Source: an uncultured Armatimonadota bacterium (GTDB taxonomy: Bacteria; Armatimonadota; Armatimonadia; Armatimonadales; Armatimonadaceae). From it: a stretch of 35,036 bases of DNA. Shown here piece by piece: positions 75-35,036 of the stretch. How positions within the stretch are numbered: position 1 is the stretch's first letter; the number at the start of each line of letters is the position of its first letter. The translations under genes and the position numbers were made by a program. The notes under the pieces were generated by a model, which saw only the letters and a program-made list of their open reading frames with translations, had not been told where the DNA came from and made no database searches. The DNA is taken from positions 1-35,036 of the forward strand of contig CAIRTT010000249.1 in NCBI GenBank assembly GCA_903881535.1. The letters are read 5' to 3'.

Positions 75-299
75 ATGGACTACCAAGTGCTATTCAACAT
101 CGCAGTGTGCATCGCAGGATTCTTTGGCGGTTGGACGTTGAACCGCATTTACACTGCTATTGACCGCCTTGATGGGGACGTTAGGAATATGCCAATAAAC
201 TACGTCACAAAAGATGATTACCGGGACGATATCAAGGACATGAATCGCAAACTAGATAAAATCTTTGATCTACTGCAAACCAAAGTAGACAAGGCATAA
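75..299 (+). CDS. Small phage protein with an N-terminal transmembrane segment and a charged/coiled C-terminus, lysis-region hypothetical
   Basis: ORF with ATG; preceding AAGGAAG is a good SD; hydrophobic N-terminus (VLFNIAVCIAGFFGGW). Confidence 0.75.
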   Translation: MDYQVLFNIAVCIAGFFGGWTLNRIYTAIDRLDGDVRNMPINYVTKDDYRDDIKDMNRKLDKIFDLLQTKVDKA

Positions 300-301
300 A
301 C

Positions 302-541
302 ATGGCTACACCGAGTGAAGTCAAAGGAAAGCTGACGTTTGCCGTAACGCTGATGGTGTCTGCCACGCTGTGCATATCCGTTTTGCTGATGGTCGTCGCG
401 CTCGTGACCGGCTTGTGGTTTCGAGAAATAGACAACGGCGAGATATTTAAGCTCATCAGTCCTGCATTTCAGACCATCGTTGGCGGCTTTATCGGGCTGC
501 TTGCTGGGGTAAAACTCAGCCACGATGATAATTTAAAGTAA
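302..541 (+). CDS. Small membrane protein with two predicted TM segments, possible holin-type lysis protein
   Basis: ATG 3 nt after the previous stop; two hydrophobic stretches (LMVSATLCISVLLMVVALVTGLWF; IVGGFIGLLAGV). Confidence 0.65.
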   Translation: MATPSEVKGKLTFAVTLMVSATLCISVLLMVVALVTGLWFREIDNGEIFKLISPAFQTIVGGFIGLLAGVKLSHDDNLK

Positions 542-550
542 GGTATCAGC

Positions 551-949
551 ATGATCATTTTACACAAGCGCACATATCAGACTGACAAAACCATTGGCGT
601 CATACAAATCGGTGATGAAGTTTTAGGCGTTACGCTCGAAGACATTGGCCGTCCATTTGGTATCAAGATCCCTAAAGAGACTTGCATTCCCGAAGGCGAG
701 TATCAAGTGGCTGTAACAATGTCCACTCGGTTTGGGCGGGAGATGTTGTTGCTCTACTCCAACCCCAAAGACCGCAGCTGCGACCTTGCCGGGTGTACAT
801 ATACAGGTATACGTGTACACAAAGGCACGAAAACTGAACATACGGAAGGCTGCGTACTCTACCAAGGCGACCTACCAGCACTAGAAAAACTAATATCAGA
901 TGCAATTGCTGCCGGTGACAAAGTCACTTGGATTATTGGGAGAGCCTAA
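551..949 (+). CDS. DUF5675-like phage protein of the lysis cassette
   Basis: ORF; pattern LEDIGRPFGIKIPKETCIPEGEYQV...GIRVHKGTKTEHTEGCVLYQG recognised as DUF5675-type. Confidence 0.7.
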   Translation: MIILHKRTYQTDKTIGVIQIGDEVLGVTLEDIGRPFGIKIPKETCIPEGEYQVAVTMSTRFGREMLLLYSNPKDRSCDLAGCTYTGIRVHKGTKTEHTEGCVLYQGDLPALEKLISDAIAAGDKVTWIIGRA

Positions 950-1362
950 TGGCGCTTGACCCTATTACTGCTGGAATTGGCTTGCTTGATACGTTCATCA
1001 ACAAATTTGTTGCTGACAAAGACCTAGCAGCCAAACTGGCGATTCAAGCCCGCTCCGAAGAGTTCCAAGGCAACATAACCTTGCTGACCGGACAGATGGC
1101 CGTTAATCAAGAGGAAGCCAAAAGCACGAACTGGTTTGTGGCCGGTTGGCGACCTTGGATCGGCTGGATCTGCGGTGCTGGTCTTGCCTATGCTGTGTTG
1201 ATCGAGCCGCTTGCCCGATTCATAGCACAAGTAGGTTTCCACTACACTGGGCCATTCCCGGCCATTGACACCACGCTGACGATGCAGGTTTTAATCGGCA
1301 TGTTGGGCTTGGGGACAATGCGGACATGGGAAAAGACCAAAGATGCTGAAGGCAAACGGTAA
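949..1362 (+). CDS. 3-TM phage/GTA-type holin
   Basis: Start trimmed to the ATG overlapping the upstream stop (TAATG); WFVAGWRPWIGWICGAGLAYAVLIEPLAR...LIGMLGLGTMRTWEK resembles the GTA_holin_3TM family. Confidence 0.75.
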   Translation: MALDPITAGIGLLDTFINKFVADKDLAAKLAIQARSEEFQGNITLLTGQMAVNQEEAKSTNWFVAGWRPWIGWICGAGLAYAVLIEPLARFIAQVGFHYTGPFPAIDTTLTMQVLIGMLGLGTMRTWEKTKDAEGKR

Positions 1363-1386
1363 ACTTTAATCAACTAGGACACGACC

Positions 1387-1938
1387 ATGAAAAGAATAAT
1401 CGCTGTGTTTGTTACCCTGTTCAGCATGGCTGTCCATGCCGACCCTAACATCGCTATCTGCCATGGCGAATACGCGCTGTGCGCATCCAGTGCAACCGAA
1501 CCGACTGGTAAAACAATGGTTGTGAACGGCAAAACTTTTGAGGAAGGCCACGCGGTCTGCCCAGTAATCAAAGGCGAGAGCGTTGCCGATTTTAACCTCA
1601 CCAACGGATCCTGTGCCCCGCCTAAAGGCGACCATACCGTGTGGAGTCTGTTCGGCACCCCAAGCACTTACCCGCAATCCCCGACATGGGCGCCGGCCCC
1701 AATGACCGTCCGTACATTCACCACCGCTGTGGGAGCCGGAAACGGGATGAGCAATATGTGGTCATTTCCTTGCGTTGTGCGTCCGAAAAAAGTAAACGGC
1801 GCCACCCTGTCAGATTGTTTTGGCCCCATCAACGAAAGTCCTTGGACTGGTGACCATGTACCGCCCGGCACAAACTCCGGGACTGGCGCTCCGGTTGGTG
1901 CAAGTGACCCGGTTGGTGGCAACTTTCCCGCCAAGTAA
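1387..1938 (+). CDS. Secreted/periplasmic Cys-containing phage protein, function unknown
   Basis: Clear signal peptide MKRIIAVFVTLFSMAVHA followed by a Cys-rich mature domain. Confidence 0.7.
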   Translation: MKRIIAVFVTLFSMAVHADPNIAICHGEYALCASSATEPTGKTMVVNGKTFEEGHAVCPVIKGESVADFNLTNGSCAPPKGDHTVWSLFGTPSTYPQSPTWAPAPMTVRTFTTAVGAGNGMSNMWSFPCVVRPKKVNGATLSDCFGPINESPWTGDHVPPGTNSGTGAPVGASDPVGGNFPAK

Positions 1939-2023
1939 CCAATTGAATACTCGTTATTTCGGGCGTACAATAACGATTCGCCGCGTGTGCTGAACCAGCA
2001 TCTGACAATACTTTGGAGTATTT

Positions 2024-2656
2024 ATGAGCTATAGCATGACGTATGACAGTCTGCTGGTTGATGTTCGCCGGTATCTTGAGCGCGGCTTCACACAAGCGTC
2101 AGATCAAATAGTTTACGACCAGCTGCCTCGCCTGATCACTCTGGGCGAGCGTCGAATAGCCCGTGAACTGAAAATCGAAGGGTTCATCCGTCCGGTCACC
2201 ACCCCATTGTCTGTTGGGGTTTCCACGTACATGAAGCCAGACCGCTGGCGCGACACCGTCAGCATGACCATTGACGGCACCCCCATCTTTGCCCGGTCAT
2301 ATGAATACTGCAGATCCTACTGGCCGGCCCCCGCCGAGACTGGCAAGCCCCAGTTCTACGCAGACTACGACTATCAGCACTGGCTGATTACCCCTACCCC
2401 TGACGCTGCCTACAACCTCGAAATCCTGTATTACGAGCAGCCGCCGCTTCTTGGGGACGACCTACAAACCAACTGGCTGACACAATATGCCCCTGACGTT
2501 CTGCTGTATGCGACGCTGTTAGAAGCAACGCCATTCCTGAAGAACGACGAGCGCGTGGGAGTATGGCAGGCCATGTACGACCGTGCGGCCAAAGCCCTGA
2601 GCGGCGAAGATCTTGGCCGTATCATGGATCGTTCAGCAAGCAGGAGTGAAGCGTAA
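2024..2656 (+). CDS. Phage head-tail adaptor-like protein
   Basis: 210-aa ORF; position in the structural module; ...ITLGERRIARELKIEGF...YYEQPPLL... resembles phage adaptor proteins. Confidence 0.65.
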   Translation: MSYSMTYDSLLVDVRRYLERGFTQASDQIVYDQLPRLITLGERRIARELKIEGFIRPVTTPLSVGVSTYMKPDRWRDTVSMTIDGTPIFARSYEYCRSYWPAPAETGKPQFYADYDYQHWLITPTPDAAYNLEILYYEQPPLLGDDLQTNWLTQYAPDVLLYATLLEATPFLKNDERVGVWQAMYDRAAKALSGEDLGRIMDRSASRSEA

Positions 2657-3921
2657 TGCCGATTTATACCGATGTGTTCGGTGGTGCGAACATTTACCCC
2701 AGCGAGATCAGCTACAGCGCGATTGCCCTGTCTGCGGATGTTGTCCTTAGCTGGCCTGAAGAAACCTCCACCAACGACAACCTTGCCACGCGCATCATTG
2801 ACGTTACTGCCTCTGCGGCTGGGTTCAACATTTTCCTGCCCGACGCGGCCAAGAGCGGCACCGGCAACACCATCCTGTTCAATAACCTTGGCGCCTACAC
2901 TTTTACGGTAAAAGACGCCGACGGGGTTCAGGTCGGGACGATTGCTGCCGGCACGTTGTGGCAGATATACCTGACCGACAACACCACAACCGCCGGCACA
3001 TGGCAGTTGCTGCAGTACGGCGCAACTACTTCAGTAGCCAACGCCTCGGCCCTTGCCGGCACTGGCATCGTGGCTGTTGGCACATTGCTTTCCCAGTCTG
3101 TGCCGATCACCTCGTTCAACAGCGACTACTCTGCTGGGGTGAGCGACAGGGCCAAAATGTACAACTGGACTGGCGCTGGCGGCACACTGACATTGCCTGA
3201 CCCGGTCACCACCGGCACCAACTGGTTCATGTACCTGCGCAACTCTGGCACCGGGGCTATTGTTGCCGATGCTCCGGGCACTACCACAATCAACGACACC
3301 AGTTTCCTGAGCTTCCAGCCCGGTGAGTCGGCCATCATCGCAACCGACGGCGCTAACTTCTTCACCATCGGGTTTGGTCAGTCGGCCACATTTGCCTTTG
3401 ACTACACCGTTATCGCTGTTGGCGGTACTGGCAATTACACCCTGAGCGGATCCGAACTGAACCGCGTGTCCTACCGCTTCACCGGAGTCAAGACCGGCAA
3501 CCGCGCCATCATTGTGCCGGCTACAGTACAGCAATACTGGGTCGACAATGAAACCACAGGCTCGTACACGTTCACGGTGAAGACTGCGGCAGGTACAGGC
3601 GTGGTGATTTTTGACGGTGAACGTGCCATCTTGTACAGTGACGGGACAAACGTGCTGCGTGCAGATACTTCCGGTATCTCGTACCCGATTGCGGTGGCAC
3701 AGGGCGGCACAGGGGCCACAACGGCTGGCGCTGCGCTGATTAACCTCGGCGGTACAGCGGTAGGCACTGGCCTGTTCACTGCAGTCGATGAGGCGGCGGC
3801 TTGGGCAGTGTTGGGCGGTACAGCGGTAGGCACCGGCCTGTTCACTGCAGTCGATCAGGCTGCGGCTTGGTCAGTGTTGGGAGCTGCGCCTTCTGGCACG
3901 GTGAATGGTGGCAGCTTCTAA
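2656..3921 (+). CDS. Tail-fibre/appendage-like structural protein
   Basis: 421-aa ORF overlapping the previous stop; fibre-type repeats VAQGGTGATTAGAALINLG and tandem GGTAVGTGLFTAVD(E/Q)AAAW(A/S)VL. Confidence 0.65.
   Translation: MPIYTDVFGGANIYPSEISYSAIALSADVVLSWPEETSTNDNLATRIIDVTASAAGFNIFLPDAAKSGTGNTILFNNLGAYTFTVKDADGVQVGTIAAGTLWQIYLTDNTTTAGTWQLLQYGATTSVANASALAGTGIVAVGTLLSQSVPITSFNSDYSAGVSDRAKMYNWTGAGGTLTLPDPVTTGTNWFMYLRNSGTGAIVADAPGTTTINDTSFLSFQPGESAIIATDGANFFTIGFGQSATFAFDYTVIAVGGTGNYTLSGSELNRVSYRFTGVKTGNRAIIVPATVQQYWVDNETTGSYTFTVKTAAGTGVVIFDGERAILYSDGTNVLRADTSGISYPIAVAQGGTGATTAGAALINLGGTAVGTGLFTAVDEAAAWAVLGGTAVGTGLFTAVDQAAAWSVLGAAPSGTVNGGSF
3748..3879 (+). repeat. 66-bp tandem repeat, two copies, inside the fibre-like gene
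   Basis: ggcggtacagcggtaggcac(t/c)ggcctgttcactgcagtcgat... recurs at 3748 and 3814. Confidence 0.85.
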
Positions 3922-26254: not shown

Positions 26255-26539
26255 ATGGCTACCAAAGACCCCAGACTAGCAAGAGTCGGCGTACAGGCCT
26301 TTAACCAGCCCAAGCGCACCCCCTCGCATCCGACCAAATCACACGTGGTTGTGGCAAAAGTGGGTGACGAGATCAAGACGATCCGGTTTGGCCAGCAGGG
26401 CGTATCAGGATCCCCCAAGCGCGAAGGCGAGTCAGCCCACGACAAAGCCCGCCGCGAATCGTTCAAAGCCCGCCACGCCACAAACATTGCCAAGGGCAAG
26501 ATGTCAGCAGCGTACTGGGCCAACAAGGAAAAGTGGTAA
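26255..26539 (+). CDS. Small basic phage protein
   Basis: RESFKARHATNIAKGKMSAAYWANKEKW C-terminus, a motif recurring in phage proteins; located before terS. Confidence 0.65.
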   Translation: MATKDPRLARVGVQAFNQPKRTPSHPTKSHVVVAKVGDEIKTIRFGQQGVSGSPKREGESAHDKARRESFKARHATNIAKGKMSAAYWANKEKW

Positions 26540-26541
26540 CC

Positions 26542-27261
26542 ATGGCTGACGACACAGGTAAGAAGCCCCCCAAGGTTAAAGGAGCAAGAATCGCTACCCA
26601 CAACGCTGGGAAGCCCTCCAACCCCCATGAGCTGTCTCCCGTAGAGATAGCAGCCATAACCGAGTTCATGCAGAACGGGGGAAACATGAGCGCGGCAATG
26701 AGGAAAGCGCACCCAAATGCCAAGAACTGGCAAGAAAACACACTGAACGTCAATGCATCGCAGACCTTTGGGCAGACTAAGGTGCGAATTAGAATCGCTC
26801 AACTGAGGGCCGAACAGCAGCAAAGAACGGCGATCACCGCCGATCGTGTTCTGCAAGAGGCCTACAAACTGGCATTCTCGGACGTCCGTCAACTGTTCCA
26901 TGAGGACGGAGAATTGAAGTCTCCCGCCGAGTGGCCGGACGGTGCTGCAGGCGCCATCGCCTCGTTTGAGGTAGTCACCCAGAATCAGGGAGTAGGCCAG
27001 CCGCCCCGGTACATCCACAAGGTGAAGCTCTGGGACAAGAACCCGGCGCTTGAGAAACTGTTCCGGCACATGGGCCTGTTTGAGAAAGACAACAGCCAGA
27101 AGGCCAGCATCTTGGCCCAAGACCTGTCCACAATGCCCCTCCCACTATTGCAGATGATTCAGGACAAGATACGAGCCTATGACGATGGAGCAGCAAGCCG
27201 AGGATCTCTTCCGGATGTTTCTGGCAACGGGCCAGCATCGGGCGATCGCATTAACCATTGA
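26542..27261 (+). CDS. terS: Terminase small subunit-like
   Basis: N-terminal helix-turn-helix-like region NGGNMSAAMRKAHPNAKNWQENTLNVNASQTFG; immediately upstream of and overlapping terL. Confidence 0.7.
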   Translation: MADDTGKKPPKVKGARIATHNAGKPSNPHELSPVEIAAITEFMQNGGNMSAAMRKAHPNAKNWQENTLNVNASQTFGQTKVRIRIAQLRAEQQQRTAITADRVLQEAYKLAFSDVRQLFHEDGELKSPAEWPDGAAGAIASFEVVTQNQGVGQPPRYIHKVKLWDKNPALEKLFRHMGLFEKDNSQKASILAQDLSTMPLPLLQMIQDKIRAYDDGAASRGSLPDVSGNGPASGDRINH

Positions 27262-29857
27262 TAGCGTCGAAGAGAAGAAGCGCTGCGAGACCAGCCTAGC
27301 CGAGTTTGTGAAGTGTGCTTGGCACGTGGTAGAACCTCCCGGCACAAAGCTGATCTGGAACTGGCACTTGGACGTCATCTGCGCATACATGGAAGCGGTG
27401 TACGCCGGGGGCATCAAACGCCTGATTGTGAATATCCCGCCGGGCACGATGAAGTCGCTGGTGATCATGGTCTTCTACCCCAGCTGGGTCTGGACTCAGC
27501 GTCAGGGCGAGAGATTCCTGTGCGGCACGAACGACGGGACTCTGGCGACACGCGACGCGGTCAGGATGCGGCAGCTGATCACCTCCGAGTGGTACAAGTC
27601 GCACTGGGGTGCCAAGGTGCAGCTCTCGGTCGACCAGCAGGACAAAGGCCTGTTTGCCAACACCTACCGCGGCCACAGGGAGTCCCAGTCGATACTGGGC
27701 AAGGTAACTGGTAAGAGAGGCAGTTGCATTGCCGGCCATGTGTCTATTGAGACTGAGCAAGGCCCGATTGCTATGGAATTGCTGTGCTCTATGCCGTCAC
27801 CGCCCAGAGTATGGACGTTTAATATTGAGACTGGGAGCGCAGAGCTTCAGGCTGTTGTAGCTACGCGCAAATTAACGGCTGTAAAGACGATAGACGTTTG
27901 CACGCTTGCCGGTAACTTGCTAACATGCACGCCAGATCATTTGATCTTTGCGAGCGGAAACTATGCAAAAGCAGAAAGCGTCGCCGGGTGCAGCTTGTCC
28001 ATCATGCAAAGGCCCAACCGGACGGCGCAACGGGCTGCCCATCCGATGCAGCTCATGCGCAAAAGTTCGGTTGCAATGCATAACATGCGGAATTGGTTTT
28101 CAGCGGGATGGCGCGGAAATCGACAAGCATGCCCGCAGGGGATTGAAAGACGGGCCATTTTGCAGCAAGGCCTGCAACAAGCCGATAAGAAATCCCCAGC
28201 CGATCGTAAGGCAGTGCGCACACTGTGGCAGCAACTACCGTCCTCGCTCATTAGATCCATCAAGGAAGTTCTGCAGCAGGGTTTGCTATTGTGCGGCCCC
28301 ATCGCCAATAAAAGTCTTGCAGCCAAAGCCTTGTGCTCAGTGTGGATTGATGATGACAATCACAAGCATACGACGCAAGTATTGCGGAATGTCCTGCAAA
28401 AACAAAGCCCACTCGGTCAGGATGCAAGGTTCTGGCAATTCCCACTTTACAAAAGCAACCAGCCGAGATGGACTGTTCAGGCGCATGGCTTTGATAGTAT
28501 TGGAAAGGGATTGGTATTGTTGCGCAGCTTGTGGAACGCGAAAAGACTTCCGGCGGCTGTCGGTTCACCACATCGACCACGACCCGGATCACAACGAGCC
28601 GTACAATCTAATCAGCCTGTGCAGCTCTTGTCACAACACACACCACAGGTCTATCAATCCGCCTGCTGGATTGAAGACGGAGAAGCTGAAGGGCATGGCT
28701 CATGCCCGGTCGATGTCTATGACATACAAGTTGCAGCAAACAGCAACTTCTTTGCTGGCGGAATATTAGTCCACAATTGTTTGCTGTGGGACGATCCCCA
28801 CGACGCCAACTCGGTCGAGTCTGACGTGCAGCGGCAATCGGTCATCGACGCCTACGACCAAGGCTGGTCAAGCCGACGCAATGATCTGGAAAATTCGCCG
28901 ATCGTCATCGTTATGCAGCGAGTTCACTACGCCGACATCACCGGTCATTTGCTGAAGAAAGGCAACTGGACACGGCTGGCGATCCCCATGCGGTTTGACC
29001 CAGACACGACGTACGACCCGGTCGCTGACCTGAACCGGCCCGACCTGAAGGATCCCCGGACTGAGGCAGGGCAGCTGCTGTTCCCACAGAAGTTCCCCGA
29101 TGTAGCGGTCAAAGAGCTTGAGGCCAACCTAGGCTCCTACGGCACCGCTGGGCAGCTCCAGCAAAACCCCTCGCCGAAGGGTGGCGGTATCCTGCGGTCG
29201 AGCCTGATCAACCTGTGGCCGAACACCAAGCCCCTGCCGATCATGCAGTACATCGTCCAGTCATACGACACGGCCTTTACGGAAGACACCATGAACGACC
29301 CCACTGCCTGCACTGTCTGGGGCGTGTTCTGGCATGAAGGCAAGACCAACATCATGCTGATCGACTGCTGGCAGGAGCACATGGAGTACCCCGCGCTGCG
29401 TCAGAGGGTGATCAAGGAGTGGTCGAGCAAGTACGCCGGCAACCCCAAAGACATCAGCAACCCGGCCCGATCCCCGGACATCGTCCTGATCGAGAAGAAA
29501 GGGTCAGGCCAGTCGCTGCTGCAAGACCTGTCAGCGACCAAGATCCGGATCGCCGGCTACAACCCCGGTCTGGCCGGCAAGGTGGCACGTGCCCACCTGA
29601 TCACCCCGATCATGGACAGCGGCGTCATCTGGATCATTGAGTCCAAGGCTGGCGACTCGTGGCCGACTTGGGCGACGTGGCTGGAAAAGCAGATCGACCG
29701 ATTCCCGAACGACGAGCACGACGATGGGGTAGACACCATGACCCAAGCCCTGCGCTACCTGAAAGACTCCGGCTTCGTGTCCCTGAGCCAGAGCGAACGC
29801 ATCCACGAGAACCGCCCGCTAATCACAAAGGAGAAGGGGAACCCCTATGCCCAGTAA
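27179..29857 (+). CDS. terL: Terminase large subunit precursor, interrupted by an intein (892 aa precursor; 541 aa after predicted splicing)
   Basis: NIPPGTMKSL Walker A-like, LLWDDPHD Walker B-like, nuclease region SYDTAFTEDTMNDPTACTVWGVF; open throughout, including the intein. Confidence 0.92.
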   Translation: MTMEQQAEDLFRMFLATGQHRAIALTIDSVEEKKRCETSLAEFVKCAWHVVEPPGTKLIWNWHLDVICAYMEAVYAGGIKRLIVNIPPGTMKSLVIMVFYPSWVWTQRQGERFLCGTNDGTLATRDAVRMRQLITSEWYKSHWGAKVQLSVDQQDKGLFANTYRGHRESQSILGKVTGKRGSCIAGHVSIETEQGPIAMELLCSMPSPPRVWTFNIETGSAELQAVVATRKLTAVKTIDVCTLAGNLLTCTPDHLIFASGNYAKAESVAGCSLSIMQRPNRTAQRAAHPMQLMRKSSVAMHNMRNWFSAGWRGNRQACPQGIERRAILQQGLQQADKKSPADRKAVRTLWQQLPSSLIRSIKEVLQQGLLLCGPIANKSLAAKALCSVWIDDDNHKHTTQVLRNVLQKQSPLGQDARFWQFPLYKSNQPRWTVQAHGFDSIGKGLVLLRSLWNAKRLPAAVGSPHRPRPGSQRAVQSNQPVQLLSQHTPQVYQSACWIEDGEAEGHGSCPVDVYDIQVAANSNFFAGGILVHNCLLWDDPHDANSVESDVQRQSVIDAYDQGWSSRRNDLENSPIVIVMQRVHYADITGHLLKKGNWTRLAIPMRFDPDTTYDPVADLNRPDLKDPRTEAGQLLFPQKFPDVAVKELEANLGSYGTAGQLQQNPSPKGGGILRSSLINLWPNTKPLPIMQYIVQSYDTAFTEDTMNDPTACTVWGVFWHEGKTNIMLIDCWQEHMEYPALRQRVIKEWSSKYAGNPKDISNPARSPDIVLIEKKGSGQSLLQDLSATKIRIAGYNPGLAGKVARAHLITPIMDSGVIWIIESKAGDSWPTWATWLEKQIDRFPNDEHDDGVDTMTQALRYLKDSGFVSLSQSERIHENRPLITKEKGNPYAQ
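27725..28777 (+). mobile_element. Intein (351 codons) in terL
   Basis: Cys1 (TGC 27725), block A CIAGHVSIETEQG, block B LLTCTPDHLIFASG, block F/G VDVYDIQVAANSNFFAGGILVHN, then Cys+1 (TGT 28778). Confidence 0.95.
27963..28769 (+). CDS. HNH endonuclease with zinc knuckles, encoded out of frame (+1) inside the terL intein
   Basis: CITCGIGF..FCSKAC; CAHCGSNY..KFCSRVC; CAQCG..KYCGMSC; HNH core CCAACGTRKDFRRLSVHHIDHDPDHNEPYNLISLCSSCHNTHH; ATG 27963 (TTG alternative at 27948). Confidence 0.9.
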   Translation: MQKQKASPGAACPSCKGPTGRRNGLPIRCSSCAKVRLQCITCGIGFQRDGAEIDKHARRGLKDGPFCSKACNKPIRNPQPIVRQCAHCGSNYRPRSLDPSRKFCSRVCYCAAPSPIKVLQPKPCAQCGLMMTITSIRRKYCGMSCKNKAHSVRMQGSGNSHFTKATSRDGLFRRMALIVLERDWYCCAACGTRKDFRRLSVHHIDHDPDHNEPYNLISLCSSCHNTHHRSINPPAGLKTEKLKGMAHARSMSMTYKLQQTATSLLAEY

Positions 29858-30086
29858 GCCGCGAACGAGCGCCCGCTTGGTGCTCAACGGCAGACGATGC
29901 CAGTGCCCGACCTGCAAGGAGTATTTCAGTACGATCACCAACTTCGACAAGCACCGGGTAGGCGACCACGCCACCGGCAAGGTCTGCGTCGACCCGGAGT
30001 CTGTCGGCATGGCCATCGCCACAGCAGGCAGCTCAACCTATTGGATCACCCCCAGCAAAGACGGAAAGTTTTATGACAGCGAGTGA
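29847..30086 (+). CDS. Small C2H2-type zinc-finger phage protein
   Basis: CQCPTCKEYFSTITNFDKHRVGDH. Confidence 0.7.
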   Translation: MPSKPRTSARLVLNGRRCQCPTCKEYFSTITNFDKHRVGDHATGKVCVDPESVGMAIATAGSSTYWITPSKDGKFYDSE

Positions 30087-30273
30087 GAAAAGCCAGAGCA
30101 CCCGGATAATGATCAACGCCAAGGGCGTCGTGGCCCAGCTGCGGATGAGGCCGGGTATTTTTGAGGTTGAGTCTGGCCCGAGGTTTGGCGAGAGCGTGGG
30201 CGCCGGCAATCACGTAGACGAGATGGTAGAGATCTTCAAGGCGTGGATAAAAACAGAGCTTGACACTGAGTAG
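30073..30273 (+). CDS. Small hypothetical protein
   Basis: 66-aa ORF overlapping the previous gene. Confidence 0.5.
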   Translation: MTASEKSQSTRIMINAKGVVAQLRMRPGIFEVESGPRFGESVGAGNHVDEMVEIFKAWIKTELDTE

Positions 30274-30337
30274 ACAACTGGAACGGTGACACAGAAAGTG
30301 TTAAAGTACGGGGTACTACTCTTTGACGGGGTGAGTT

Positions 30338-33300
30338 ATGCCTAAGAAAACTGCTCCCCAGAACACTGGCCTGTTCAACAAGATGCTTGGCTCGATAGCC
30401 AAAGGCGTCGGCACGGCCACCAGTTCGCACCCGGTTGACTCCCTGCTTGGGTTTGTATCCCCCGACCTGTTAGCTATGAAGCTGGACGCCGAGAAGGCCG
30501 GCAACGCCTACCCAGTTGCAGACCGCTGGAACGGCCCCGGCGACGCCATGCGCCACCTGATGTTCTCTTCCAAGCTGGCCGACCGCTACGGGCAGATCCC
30601 GTCGCAGCTGGAGAGCCTTGCCCACGAGTACCTGCTGAATTTTGGCGAGTCTTCCGCAGAGCGCGAGATGGATCTATACAACGACACGCTGGGACGATCC
30701 ATTGCCGGGCAGACGTCAGACCCAGCCGAGATGCAGCGCCTTGCCCAGAAGTACGTGGATGAGGGCACAGCCAAGACCATCAAGGGCAAAGAGGGCGCAC
30801 CGAGCAACTACGGCGGCGGTGGCGCCGTAATCAAGGCTGCTGAGAGGGCTGCGGCAAGGGCGGTAGAGAAGAGCGCCGCTAAACCTGTGTTACATGCCGC
30901 ACCAAACGTAGTAAACATGAACAACATCCCCGACGAAAAAGAAGGGTATCTGAGGCTGTATCATGGGGGTTCTGAAGAGGGCTTTACAAGTGTCCCGGAT
31001 TCTTCAACAACTGCCGGCTTTTCTTTTGACGGATTATTTGCACACCCTGAAAAGCGAAGTTCATGGGGCGCACATGGCAATGGTTCTAACTATTTTGCCG
31101 ATATAAAAGAACCTGAAATTCTGACCCAAAACGCACTGGATTACCACATTCCTTACGAAAACACGGTGGCTGCACTTAAGAAAGCAATGCCTTGGCTTAA
31201 TGATAATGATGTCGATCTTGCTCACTCTGCTGTAATTGAAGACAAAAATGTTCATGACATGGACGCAAATGATGTTTCTAGAGTTTTCCGCGCAGATGAT
31301 CCCGGCCAAGCATCTTGGGAAGCGCAGCGCCTTCGAGGAAATGTAGCGCGAAATTTGGGATATAAAGCTGTGGAAATGGGCGACGAACATGGCACCAGCT
31401 ATCTCATGATGCCCGGTGTGCCTCTCACGCAAGTAATAGAAACAGACTCATCTGACCTAGGCCATGCCCACGGCGGCCTGATTGGCTTGGCTCAGAAGTA
31501 CGGTGGCGGCGGCCTGATCAGAAAGTACGACGAGGGTGGTGATGTCGCTGTACCAGATACCCAACCTAGTATCATGGGCGCACTGAAAGACCCGCAGTTC
31601 CGCCAAGACGTAGCTAACAACTTCAGGGATGCCGCGTATCGGGGTGCGGTGGCAGGTACGTTGGGTGCTCCGGTAGACATTGCTAACATGTTGGCTAACT
31701 TGGGCACAGCCGGTTACGGCTACCTTGGCAACAAGGCGGGTATGCTCCGTGGTTCCGAGATGCCAGCCACGTACAACGAACCAGTAGGCGGGTCAGAGTG
31801 GATAGGCAACAAGCTGCGGGACTATGGTGTCATCGGTGGCAACCGTAACTTAACCGCAGAAGTGATAGCAGGGTTAGGACTCCCGCTGGTACCAGTTGCT
31901 GCCGAGGCTCGCATACCGCAGATGGATAGAGCGTTGGAACAGATGGCCGCCAACTACGCTGCCAAAGACGATTTAAATGCCGGTGCTTTTGGTCAGCGTG
32001 GGGCCATAAAGCTGAGAGGGGGCAATTGGCTTAAGGGTAGTATAGAAGAGTCGTTGAATGGGTTGAAGGCAAGAACAATGAACGAATTTGAGCTTAAAAA
32101 TTTAGCAGAAAGTCAGGGCGTTGATGTAGCTGAAAGAATGCGCATCAACCAACAACCCGCAGAAGCACTCAACAACTGGGTAGACAAAACCCTTACCAAG
32201 TACGTCAAGAACGACATGGGTACGCCGGAAGACCCGTTGCGGATAATGGCGGATAAGCATGCCGTGGACAAACCTGCCAAGCTAGCTGAGGTGCAAGGGC
32301 GTATTGATGCCTTTGCTGCTAAGATGGAACAGACGGCTAGGGAGCGTGGAGTGCCTGTTGGGGATCTAACCTCTATGCGCCAGCAGATGATCGGTTTGGA
32401 GAAAGAGAAAGCATTGGTGGAAGCTAGACAAGGACTTCATTTTGAACCCCAACAACGCGGTCCTCAAATAATAGAAGATCTGCGTCACAATCGAGAGATG
32501 GAGGGTTTTCCGGGCGCAGGCTTTGGTCAATCGGAACTCGCTCGGAGATGGGAAACCGCTACCGACAAGGTTATACACCCAGAGCAAGCGCGAGACATAC
32601 TACGAGGACCGAATTACGTAAACGCAGCCATTGCCAAGGCACACGTTGACCATTCTTTGGCAAATGATCCGTGGTTGTTAAAAGTGCCTCCGGAAACAAA
32701 AGTGTATGACTTACCAGCTACCATGCGCCCTCCTGAGCACCTCGGCTTTGACCACCTCATCGACGAACTGCGCAACGCTACCAACCCTGAATCTGGCTTG
32801 CCCAAAGAGTTGCTGATTAACCCTAAAGATTTGCCCAAGATAACGATGGAGCAGGCCGTTGACCGCGTAGCTGACATAAATGCGTGGCGTGCTGCCCAGA
32901 AAGTTGAAGCCAATAAAGCAATGGCCAACAACCCTGCTACGTTCACGCACAAAGAGTATCCTGAGCAGGGTATGAAATGGGTGCAGTTGAAACGTCCTGA
33001 AGCTGTTCTTGAAGAAGGGCACGTTCCGGGCGCAGTATCAGGTTATCCAGATTTACATGGCATCATTGACCAACGCACCGGACAAAGCGTGTCACCGGGT
33101 CGGTACAATCCAGAAGAAGCTATGGACTTGTATAAGAGGGAAGAGCGCACCAAGTCTCTAGCCGACGCACTCAAGCACGAAGGCGACACAATGCGCCACT
33201 CTGTTGGAGGGTATGGAGTAAAAGGGGGGTATGGGGCTGGGGGCATAGACGCTATACTTGACGGCAGGGCTAGTATCTTTTCGCTTCGTGATGCCGAAGG

Positions 33301-35036
33301 GCGTTCCTACGCAACGATTGAAGTTCGTAAAGGAAAGCAATTAAATGACCCAACACAAGGGTTAAGTCAATCTATTTCAAACACTATTGACCCAAAACTA
33401 TTGCAAGAATATCACGAGGAATTCGCGCGGTCCGGTGAACATAGTATGTATTTTGCTAAGAACTTCTGGCCATGGCTCAAACAAACCCATCCTGAAACAT
33501 ATGAAGCGATGACTAAAGTGGGTAAGCCCATAATTCAACAAATAAAAGGCGTTGGGAATGCCGCTGTTAAGAAAGAATATTGGCCTTTGGTGCAGGACTT
33601 TGTCAAAAGCGGGTCGTGGTCAGGTGTGAATGACTTGCATAATACAGGGTTGTCAAATGTTGGCGGCAGATATTTCACCGAGCCTGAGCTTGTTGAGGCG
33701 GCTAAAAAGTATGGGCGCATGGGAGTCCAAGACACCACGTGGGAAGTTGCAAAACAACGGCACATCGATGCAGGCATGACAGAAGAGCGGGCTCTGGAAA
33801 ACTGGGTTGAAGGGTTTAGAGAGGGCCGAGGCAGGCTTGATATTCCACCCGAAGGCTTCGCTGCAGGCGGCAGCGTCAGAGCATACGATCCATCCCGGGT
33901 AGACCAGATTATGAACAGTATCAACACCCCGAGCAATTACGCAGCCGGCGGCCTTGCTGAGTTAGCCAACAAGTACGAAGGCGGCCCGTGCTACCAGTTT
34001 AAACATGACGACCATGACGAGCACTTCAACTTTGGTGGTGGTGGTGGGGTTGCCAAGGCTATGCGCGAGTGGCTCAAAGACCACCCAGAGAAGAGCTTGC
34101 AAAAGCTGAAGATGACGGCAGGAGGAGAAGACCCCGCGCAGTTGCTCAAGGCTATGGAAGAGGGCACTGACCCAAATCCTTCGGCACACATGCTTGAGCA
34201 GATGCCAAGCATCAAGGCAAAAGGTGCAATCAACAACTGGATCGACAGCACCCTGAAGAATTACGTCAAGCGCGACTACGGTCAAGAATGGGATCCGTTG
34301 TCCCAGCTGACTCCGGAACAGCGCCATGTTCCTTTGATGGATGAGCAGTACCGCAAAGAACAAATCAATGCCGTCTGGCCACCCAGAAACACAATAAACA
34401 AACGAAACCCGGCGGGGATCACAACGGTTACCCGCGCCCAACTTGAGAACCCACAGCTGAGAGAACAATATCAGAAACCCGACTATTTGGAATCTATCTA
34501 CAAAGAAAACCCGTGGATGCTCAACAAGGGAATGGACGAGCCAATCTCGTCATTTGATTCTTACGGTTTAGGGCTGGAGCATCTGACCGACGAGCTGCAC
34601 AATGCCACCCGCCCGGACTCAGACCTGCCTGATCAGTTGCGCATTAGGCCTGAATCCTTGAGCCGGATGTCGATGTCGCAAGCATCCCAGCTGGTGGGCA
34701 AGATCAATGAATACAGGGCTGCGTTAAAGGCTGCTAACGCGCAAAAGGCACTACTAACCCCTTACAAAGAATACAAATCAGGACACAAATGGGTTGAGTT
34801 GCCGGATGCATCTGATCCACAAGGATTAAAGGCGGTAATGGACACTGGTTGCGAAGGCGGCTGGTGTACTATGGGTGAGGATGAAGCAAGAGGTTATAGC
34901 CGAGCGGCGGACGGAAGGAAGCTCTATGCCTTGATAGATCCAGAAGGAAAGCCGCACGTTCAAGCTTATACTGTAAAAAACAACTTAGATCCTAACAGCC
35001 TGAATTCTGGCTACCACTTAGATCCTAACAGCACCA
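30338..35036 (+). CDS. Giant multidomain polyvalent-type phage protein (partial, >1,566 aa, no stop in window)
   Basis: Manual translation from ATG 30338 stays open to the last base; RWNGPGDAMRHLMFSSKLADRYG...AHEY...MDLYNDTLGR; ART-like region LRLYHGG...YFADI; PcfJ-like EGDTMRHSVGGYG...ASIFSLRDAEGRSYATIEV. Confidence 0.9.
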   Translation, partial: MPKKTAPQNTGLFNKMLGSIAKGVGTATSSHPVDSLLGFVSPDLLAMKLDAEKAGNAYPVADRWNGPGDAMRHLMFSSKLADRYGQIPSQLESLAHEYLLNFGESSAEREMDLYNDTLGRSIAGQTSDPAEMQRLAQKYVDEGTAKTIKGKEGAPSNYGGGGAVIKAAERAAARAVEKSAAKPVLHAAPNVVNMNNIPDEKEGYLRLYHGGSEEGFTSVPDSSTTAGFSFDGLFAHPEKRSSWGAHGNGSNYFADIKEPEILTQNALDYHIPYENTVAALKKAMPWLNDNDVDLAHSAVIEDKNVHDMDANDVSRVFRADDPGQASWEAQRLRGNVARNLGYKAVEMGDEHGTSYLMMPGVPLTQVIETDSSDLGHAHGGLIGLAQKYGGGGLIRKYDEGGDVAVPDTQPSIMGALKDPQFRQDVANNFRDAAYRGAVAGTLGAPVDIANMLANLGTAGYGYLGNKAGMLRGSEMPATYNEPVGGSEWIGNKLRDYGVIGGNRNLTAEVIAGLGLPLVPVAAEARIPQMDRALEQMAANYAAKDDLNAGAFGQRGAIKLRGGNWLKGSIEESLNGLKARTMNEFELKNLAESQGVDVAERMRINQQPAEALNNWVDKTLTKYVKNDMGTPEDPLRIMADKHAVDKPAKLAEVQGRIDAFAAKMEQTARERGVPVGDLTSMRQQMIGLEKEKALVEARQGLHFEPQQRGPQIIEDLRHNREMEGFPGAGFGQSELARRWETATDKVIHPEQARDILRGPNYVNAAIAKAHVDHSLANDPWLLKVPPETKVYDLPATMRPPEHLGFDHLIDELRNATNPESGLPKELLINPKDLPKITMEQAVDRVADINAWRAAQKVEANKAMANNPATFTHKEYPEQGMKWVQLKRPEAVLEEGHVPGAVSGYPDLHGIIDQRTGQSVSPGRYNPEEAMDLYKREERTKSLADALKHEGDTMRHSVGGYGVKGGYGAGGIDAILDGRASIFSLRDAEGRSYATIEVRKGKQLNDPTQGLSQSISNTIDPKLLQEYHEEFARSGEHSMYFAKNFWPWLKQTHPETYEAMTKVGKPIIQQIKGVGNAAVKKEYWPLVQDFVKSGSWSGVNDLHNTGLSNVGGRYFTEPELVEAAKKYGRMGVQDTTWEVAKQRHIDAGMTEERALENWVEGFREGRGRLDIPPEGFAAGGSVRAYDPSRVDQIMNSINTPSNYAAGGLAELANKYEGGPCYQFKHDDHDEHFNFGGGGGVAKAMREWLKDHPEKSLQKLKMTAGGEDPAQLLKAMEEGTDPNPSAHMLEQMPSIKAKGAINNWIDSTLKNYVKRDYGQEWDPLSQLTPEQRHVPLMDEQYRKEQINAVWPPRNTINKRNPAGITTVTRAQLENPQLREQYQKPDYLESIYKENPWMLNKGMDEPISSFDSYGLGLEHLTDELHNATRPDSDLPDQLRIRPESLSRMSMSQASQLVGKINEYRAALKAANAQKALLTPYKEYKSGHKWVELPDASDPQGLKAVMDTGCEGGWCTMGEDEARGYSRAADGRKLYALIDPEGKPHVQAYTVKNNLDPNSLNSGYHLDPNST
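34983..35032 (+). repeat. 17-bp direct repeat, 33-nt period, at the right edge
   Basis: acttagatcctaacagc at 34983 and 35016, encoding (N)LDPNS...LDPNS in frame. Confidence 0.8.

Follow-up and report, generated by a model that had tools for sequence, protein, structure and literature searches.

Inteins in the large terminase subunit (TerL) of mycobacteriophages splice, and some of them carry active endonucleases (PMC5050341). In actinobacteriophage DNA methylases, the ShiLan domain and the Pacc40 insertion hide an HNH out of frame (PMC11855218, 2025). Splicing domains are not detectable in ShiLan, which is thought to remain in the protein (PMC11855218). Here we analyze a locus related to both systems in a stretch of 35,036 nucleotides from an uncultured Armatimonadota bacterium, hereafter the window.

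Like the mycobacteriophage inteins, the insertion in the window interrupts the ATPase domain of TerL, possesses the splicing blocks, and accommodates an endonuclease in the usual slot between Blocks B and F. Whereas the mycobacteriophage inteins include the endonuclease in their own polypeptide, the HNH of the window is read from a different frame and has a separate start and stop. The locus shares with ShiLan and Pacc40 an out-of-frame HNH with zinc fingers, a host gene frame that stays open, and a sporadic distribution suggesting homing. Unlike ShiLan, however, the host frame is an intein with all splicing blocks and resides in TerL; an out-of-frame HNH in an open host frame is thus found as in ShiLan-type insertions, but the absence of splicing domains is not. 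Group I introns with a nested homing endonuclease gene (HEG) also resemble the locus, as a splicing element there contains the HEG as a distinct ORF that has a start of its own. Splicing in the window would, however, take place at the protein level. Because no group I or II intron RNA was matched in Rfam (E up to 1, positions 26500-30500) and the terL frame is open throughout, such an intron was rejected.

A single open frame of the window encodes TerL together with the intein (Table 1). Both TerL exteins match the PHROG terminase large subunit (best 2.8e-69), and the insertion point lies directly 5' of the Walker-B motif (LLWDDP). The splicing residues are present, namely C1, TPDH in Block B, the FFAGGILVHN terminus, and Cys+1. 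The TIGR01443 model of intein C-termini matches the TerL ORF above its cut-off (E = 1e-6), and Pfam Intein_splicing matches the intein alone with E = 2.8e-6, under the curated cut-off. The GC content of the intein is 52%, compared with 59-60% in the terL exteins. Searches with Pfam, TIGR, and PHROG profiles gave no match to endonuclease families in the intein frame. The locus does not qualify as a large (bifunctional) intein with an in-frame endonuclease, as its HNH lies in the +1 frame and has its own stop. Elsewhere in the window, a 1566-residue ORF (30338-35035) runs past the window end, and its sole match is a PHROG of unknown function.

The HNH frame is already open from TTG 27948, an alternative start, and ends 8 nt upstream of the intein end; the third frame contains 15 stops over the overlap. 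The HNH frame matches Pfam HNH over the cut-off (6.2e-5) and the PHROG HNH endonuclease (4e-20). Among 23 aligned HNH members, C187, H202, H203, N215, H224, and H228 are invariant, and C190, C220, and C223 are nearly so. The catalytic residues and zinc-binding cysteines of an HNH homing endonuclease are therefore conserved, although cleavage has not been shown. An earlier note on the window had described a terL frame without a stop through a full intein, no endonuclease motifs in the intein-frame linker, and an HNH ORF of about 268 residues one nucleotide off, from ATG 27963 to TAG 28767-28769. The coordinates of the intein and of this ORF were borne out, and none of the endonuclease families matches the linker.

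Table 1. Features of the intein-bearing terL locus, in window coordinates.
Feature	Position	Strand	Support
terS (terminase small subunit), context only	26533..27261	+	PHROG 51, 9e-21
terL ORF (terminase large subunit precursor, 892 aa, contains intein)	27179..29857	+	stop-free frame; PHROG terminase large subunit
Left side of presumed co-conversion footprint, adjoining intein	27716..27724	+	5/9 bases differ from L002
Intein, 351 aa, Cys1 to Asn351, then Cys+1	27725..28777	+	Pfam Intein_splicing, TIGR01443, predicted HINT fold, empty allele L002
N-terminal splicing half, intein residues 1-93 (Block A Cys1 to past Block B TPDH)	27725..28003	+	pLDDT; profile match to solved mini-inteins
Weak Shine-Dalgarno-like stretch CGAGCGGA, ahead of ATG 27963	27951..27958	+	pairing -2.6 kcal/mol
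HNH/zinc-finger endonuclease ORF, 268 aa, +1 frame, ATG 27963, TAG 28767-28769	27963..28769	+	Pfam, PHROG, AlphaFold2, selection in relatives
HNH catalytic region, +1 frame (C..C, VHH, N..NL, C..CH...H)	28521..28646	+	Pfam HNH; residue conservation
C-terminal splicing half, Blocks F and G, VYDIQV..NSNFFAGGILVHN	28697..28777	+	TIGR01443; pLDDT
Right side of presumed co-conversion footprint, +1 codon included	28778..28786	+	3/9 bases differ from L002

To collect related loci, we searched phage records by tblastn, scanned viral contigs with alignment queries, and also searched genomes and plasmids. Scanning the viral contigs with the single HNH sequence of the window found nothing, and the family surfaced only by tblastn on phage records and with alignment queries. 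The HNH protein of the window matched Gordonia phage Clown (gp5) and Synechococcus phage S-EIV1 by tblastn, in both cases within a gene annotated as plain terminase. In both genes, the TerL frame bears an intein and is open, and the HNH lies in +1 relative to it. The annotation of both phages lacks an HNH gene. In total, we obtained 37 TerL loci including the window, 24 once near duplicates were removed; their sources include viral contigs, a single bacterial genome from the phylum of the window, and four Streptomyces plasmids. All 37 share a common insertion site immediately ahead of Walker B, and in all 37 the HNH is found in the TerL frame +1 without any stop in the intein frame; the third frame contains 6-29 stops. 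The C-terminal residues of the inteins are HN, LN, or SN, with Cys or Ser as the next residue, and Cys1, TxxH, the C-terminal HN/LN/SN, and the +1 residue are conserved in 23 aligned members. In the alignment-based viral contig scan, all matches with E <= 2e-16 show the +1 layout, which is therefore not a product of choosing open frames. The nested two-frame element proposed from the window, a mini-intein with an overlapping HEG, thus recurs at 36 other TerL loci.

In the four Streptomyces plasmids (NZ_CP108353, NZ_CP032230, NC_013449, and NZ_CP134214), the automatic gene calls comprise the hidden HNH and a hypothetical protein that is the C-terminal part of TerL, whereas the N-terminal part of TerL is left without annotation, so that TerL is split around the HNH. 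These plasmids, which carry a phage terminase, may be phage-plasmids. In the dozens of other phages that have the two-in-one arrangement, annotation mostly misses it.

Since the window contig comes from a fragmented draft genome (673 contigs), one could suspect that the HNH is an ordinary in-frame endonuclease displaced by assembly or sequencing indels; the earlier note had named a sequencing indel as a possible refutation. The identical frame relation at the 36 other loci, among them isolate phages and the Streptomyces plasmids, contradicts this, and an artefact could not produce the avoidance of host-frame stops in HNH codon choice described below. Assembly error was rejected for the family on account of its recurrence over many independent genomes, and we regard it as practically ruled out.

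The two frames experience very different selection. Between close pairs, HNH codon position 3, which is position 1 of the intein codons, is substituted at about 2-5 times the frequency of HNH positions 1 and 2, and pair identities are higher in the HNH than in the intein frame (0.90 vs. 0.72, 0.92 vs. 0.79, and 0.84 vs. 0.61). We classified substitutions into four classes by their effect on both frames, pooling six pairs and assuming a transition weight of 2. The resulting omega is about 0.28 for the HNH frame and 1.1-1.9 for the intein linker, and substitutions that would give an intein-frame stop are depleted. The earlier note had suggested that about 800 nt are under two-frame constraint and had proposed searching for dual-frame selection. 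Such a signal is present, and amino-acid selection on the HNH stands; the intein frame, however, shows only stop avoidance, and a two-frame amino-acid constraint was rejected given the omega of the linker.

An HNH codon ending in T creates an intein-frame stop when followed by AA, AG, or GA. Over the 24 non-redundant loci, none of the 1169 HNH codons in this stop-making context ends in T, compared with 1090 of 3621 elsewhere (Fisher 2e-154), and the window alone shows the same pattern (0/54 vs. 46/161 in other contexts, p = 2.4e-7). In seven non-overlapping HNH relatives and other window genes, 7-58% of the codons in the same context end in T; neither the control genes nor the free-standing relatives show stop avoidance. 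When we simulated the overlap with the HNH amino acids fixed and terL codon usage, the intein frame was free of stops in 0.1% of the runs. The overlap is under asymmetric constraint, which acts on the amino acids of the HNH and requires of the intein frame essentially only that it stay open.

Structure prediction by AlphaFold2 gave a mean pLDDT of 83.6 for the HNH-frame protein; residues 97-325 of the intein frame, encoded by the same DNA, mostly have a pLDDT below 50. Residues 1-90 of the intein mostly score 84-98 and the last 21 residues 94-96. By sequence profile, the splicing halves match solved mini-inteins (2.4e-24; profile positions 1-98 for the N-terminal half), and the best Foldseek match of the intein model is the DnaX mini-intein (4.9e-6). 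The predicted intein model thus has a HINT fold; excision and ligation are inferred. The HNH model has only weak partial matches in the PDB (best E 0.006).

The long linker, which is predicted to be unfolded, and the lack of splicing data leave room for an insertion with a hidden HNH that stays unspliced and is inactive as an intein, as was proposed for ShiLan. We find this hard to reconcile with the conserved Cys1, TxxH, HN, and Cys+1, the HINT fold, and the mini-intein matches; moreover, TerL is essential, and leaving 351 residues unspliced beside its Walker B would presumably be lethal. An unspliced insertion is accordingly a reading to which we give very little weight, and we continue with a splicing intein.

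An allele without the intein, which the earlier note had recommended looking for, was found in a phage contig (L002) that has 95% nucleotide identity over terL and lacks the insert. The +1 codon is TGT (Cys) in the window and ACT (Thr) in L002. Differences between the two are concentrated at the junction, at 8 of 18 bases compared with 71 of 1611 elsewhere (p = 4e-7). This cluster agrees with co-conversion in the course of homing, or with selection acting on the junction, and comes from one allele pair only. The insertion sites of six further loci (L003-L008) are likewise empty. Absence of the insert from close alleles together with a junction footprint, as expected of an HNH homing endonuclease, is therefore observed with L002.

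We also found a locus (L086) whose intein is 97.6% identical to that of L076 except for one deletion of 378 nt, a multiple of three. The deletion takes out the zinc fingers of the HNH, whose frame additionally has a stop, and leaves the terL frame open. Judged from these sequences, L086 represents a decay stage in which the HNH is mostly lost and the intein is retained. A homologue with a broken +1 frame and an intact terL frame had been put forward as a refutation of the nested element. The only one found is this deletion derivative of a nearly identical intact element, and it does not refute the proposal because the homing cycle predicts such derivatives. In TerL of L086 (IMGVR_UViG_3300033571_013949, 1-2568), the Walker-B-site intein with the HNH deletion is the second of two; the first carries a LAGLIDADG endonuclease in frame. 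In the set of 24, HNH distances correlate with splicing-domain distances (Mantel r = 0.48, p = 0.0005) and with C-extein distances (r = 0.28). The correlation between HNH and splicing domain is only moderate, which is a point against a composite element.

HNH proteins encoded beside terminase genes help packaging in some phages, and the majority of the family members are located in terL. The HNH could hence be a packaging-associated nuclease partnering with the terminase instead of a homing enzyme, with the intein being incidental. Packaging-assisting HNH proteins near terminase are also mentioned in PMC11855218. However, near-identical and related phages do without the entire insert (L002-L008), the HNH is lost in L086, and hidden HNHs also reside within methylase and DNA polymerase A inteins. 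A packaging role is in our view very improbable, and we retain the homing endonuclease as the preferred reading.

Regarding translation of the HNH, we compared start codons located where the N-terminal splicing half ends. Shine-Dalgarno pairing is stronger at those in the HNH frame than at those in the remaining two frames, which served as the control (Mann-Whitney p = 1.6e-4; best-of-n resampling 0/5000). Clear ribosome sites are found in S-EIV1 (AGGAG before GTG) and in L009 (AAGGGG before ATG). The internal start of the HNH, suggested earlier for the window, thus gains support from the family statistics but little from the window's own weak site. This weak site could instead indicate programmed ribosomal frameshifting from the terL frame, which would give a fusion of TerL-N, intein-N, and HNH and no free HNH. 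A single shift would be enough, as the HNH frame of the window opens soon past Block B and overlaps terL throughout. Against frameshifting speak the better ribosome sites of HNH-frame starts across the family and the clear sites of S-EIV1 and L009. We consider frameshifting unlikely, though it is not excluded, and no translation data exist; internal initiation on the terL mRNA is the most likely route.

Hidden HNHs are not restricted to the Walker-B site. The intein of L009 is inserted at another TerL site (HDDF|C) and contains a different HNH in the +2 frame. Three N6/N4 methylase inteins (L106, L135, and L037) carry an HNH in +1, with stop avoidance of 0/59 in L106 and 0/58 in L135. A DNA polymerase A intein (L133) hides a different HNH in the +1 frame, again with stop avoidance (0/40 vs. 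28/106); the gene is located in IMGVR_UViG_3300035670_006332 (239-3259), with the intein at 1568-2425. For the +2-frame cases L009, L033, and L046, informative codons were too few for this statistic. L033, L046, L087, and others are methylases with a hidden HNH without an intein at that place, resembling ShiLan. The single N6/N4 methylase gene of L037 (IMGVR_UViG_3300020180_000451, 1238-3721) contains two hidden HNHs, one in +1 within an intein (1529-2359) and one in +2 (2977-3441) within a ShiLan-type insertion. The ThyX inteins of L116 and, by HNH match, L110 also combine an intein with an HNH of a related superfamily, but this HNH is in frame and shares one ORF with the intein and ThyX. The HNH superfamily therefore occurs in all three settings: free-standing, in-frame, and out-of-frame.

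The genetic code offers a possible basis for the prevailing register. In the +1 register, a stop in the host frame requires T at the third position of the preceding HNH codon. Since each amino acid can be encoded by a codon with another third base, no amino-acid pair forces a host-frame stop. In the +2 register, TGA is unavoidable wherever Met precedes Lys, Asn, Thr, Ile, or Met. We infer that the +1 register is probably favored because synonymous HNH changes can remove all host-frame stops.

Taken together, we are fairly confident that the locus is a composite selfish element consisting of an intein and a separately translated HEG. Its architecture, recurrence, selection pattern, empty site, and decay were established computationally; splicing, cleavage, and internal initiation are inferred. 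The first layer would be the intein in the terL frame, whose two splicing halves would fold together and excise it from TerL. We propose that an insertion adjacent to Walker B is tolerated because splicing removes the intein. The second layer would be the HNH HEG in the +1 frame between Blocks B and F, which has its own start and stop; ribosomes initiating internally on the terL mRNA would most likely produce it as a free protein. In co-infecting phages, this nuclease would cleave terL sites without the insertion, and repair off the occupied copy would install the intein and the HEG jointly. Homing selection would maintain the HEG protein, and the intein-frame linker would merely be kept free of stops.

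It also seems likely, with somewhat less certainty, that these loci represent a widespread and previously unreported class of mobile elements, in which a splicing intein contains an HEG translated independently in an overlapping frame. The layout would have arisen more than once (TerL Walker-B site, +1; second TerL site, +2; N6/N4 methylase intein, +1; DNA polymerase A intein, +1), with +1 favored by synonymous stop removal. No description of a splicing intein with an out-of-frame HEG was found in the literature within reach, which left out most subscription journals.

The element joins two formerly separate ideas, splicing inteins that protect the host protein and out-of-frame hidden HNHs, which as recently described had no known means of sparing the host protein. 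It also exposes a blind spot of annotation, as seen from the split TerL of the Streptomyces plasmids and the missing HNH genes of Clown and S-EIV1. With one frame selected for its amino acids and the other only kept open, it provides a clean natural system for the evolution of overlapping genes, and the translation of hidden HNHs can now be tested in cultured phage. Inteins deemed to lack an endonuclease from searches of the host frame alone may conceal one in another frame.
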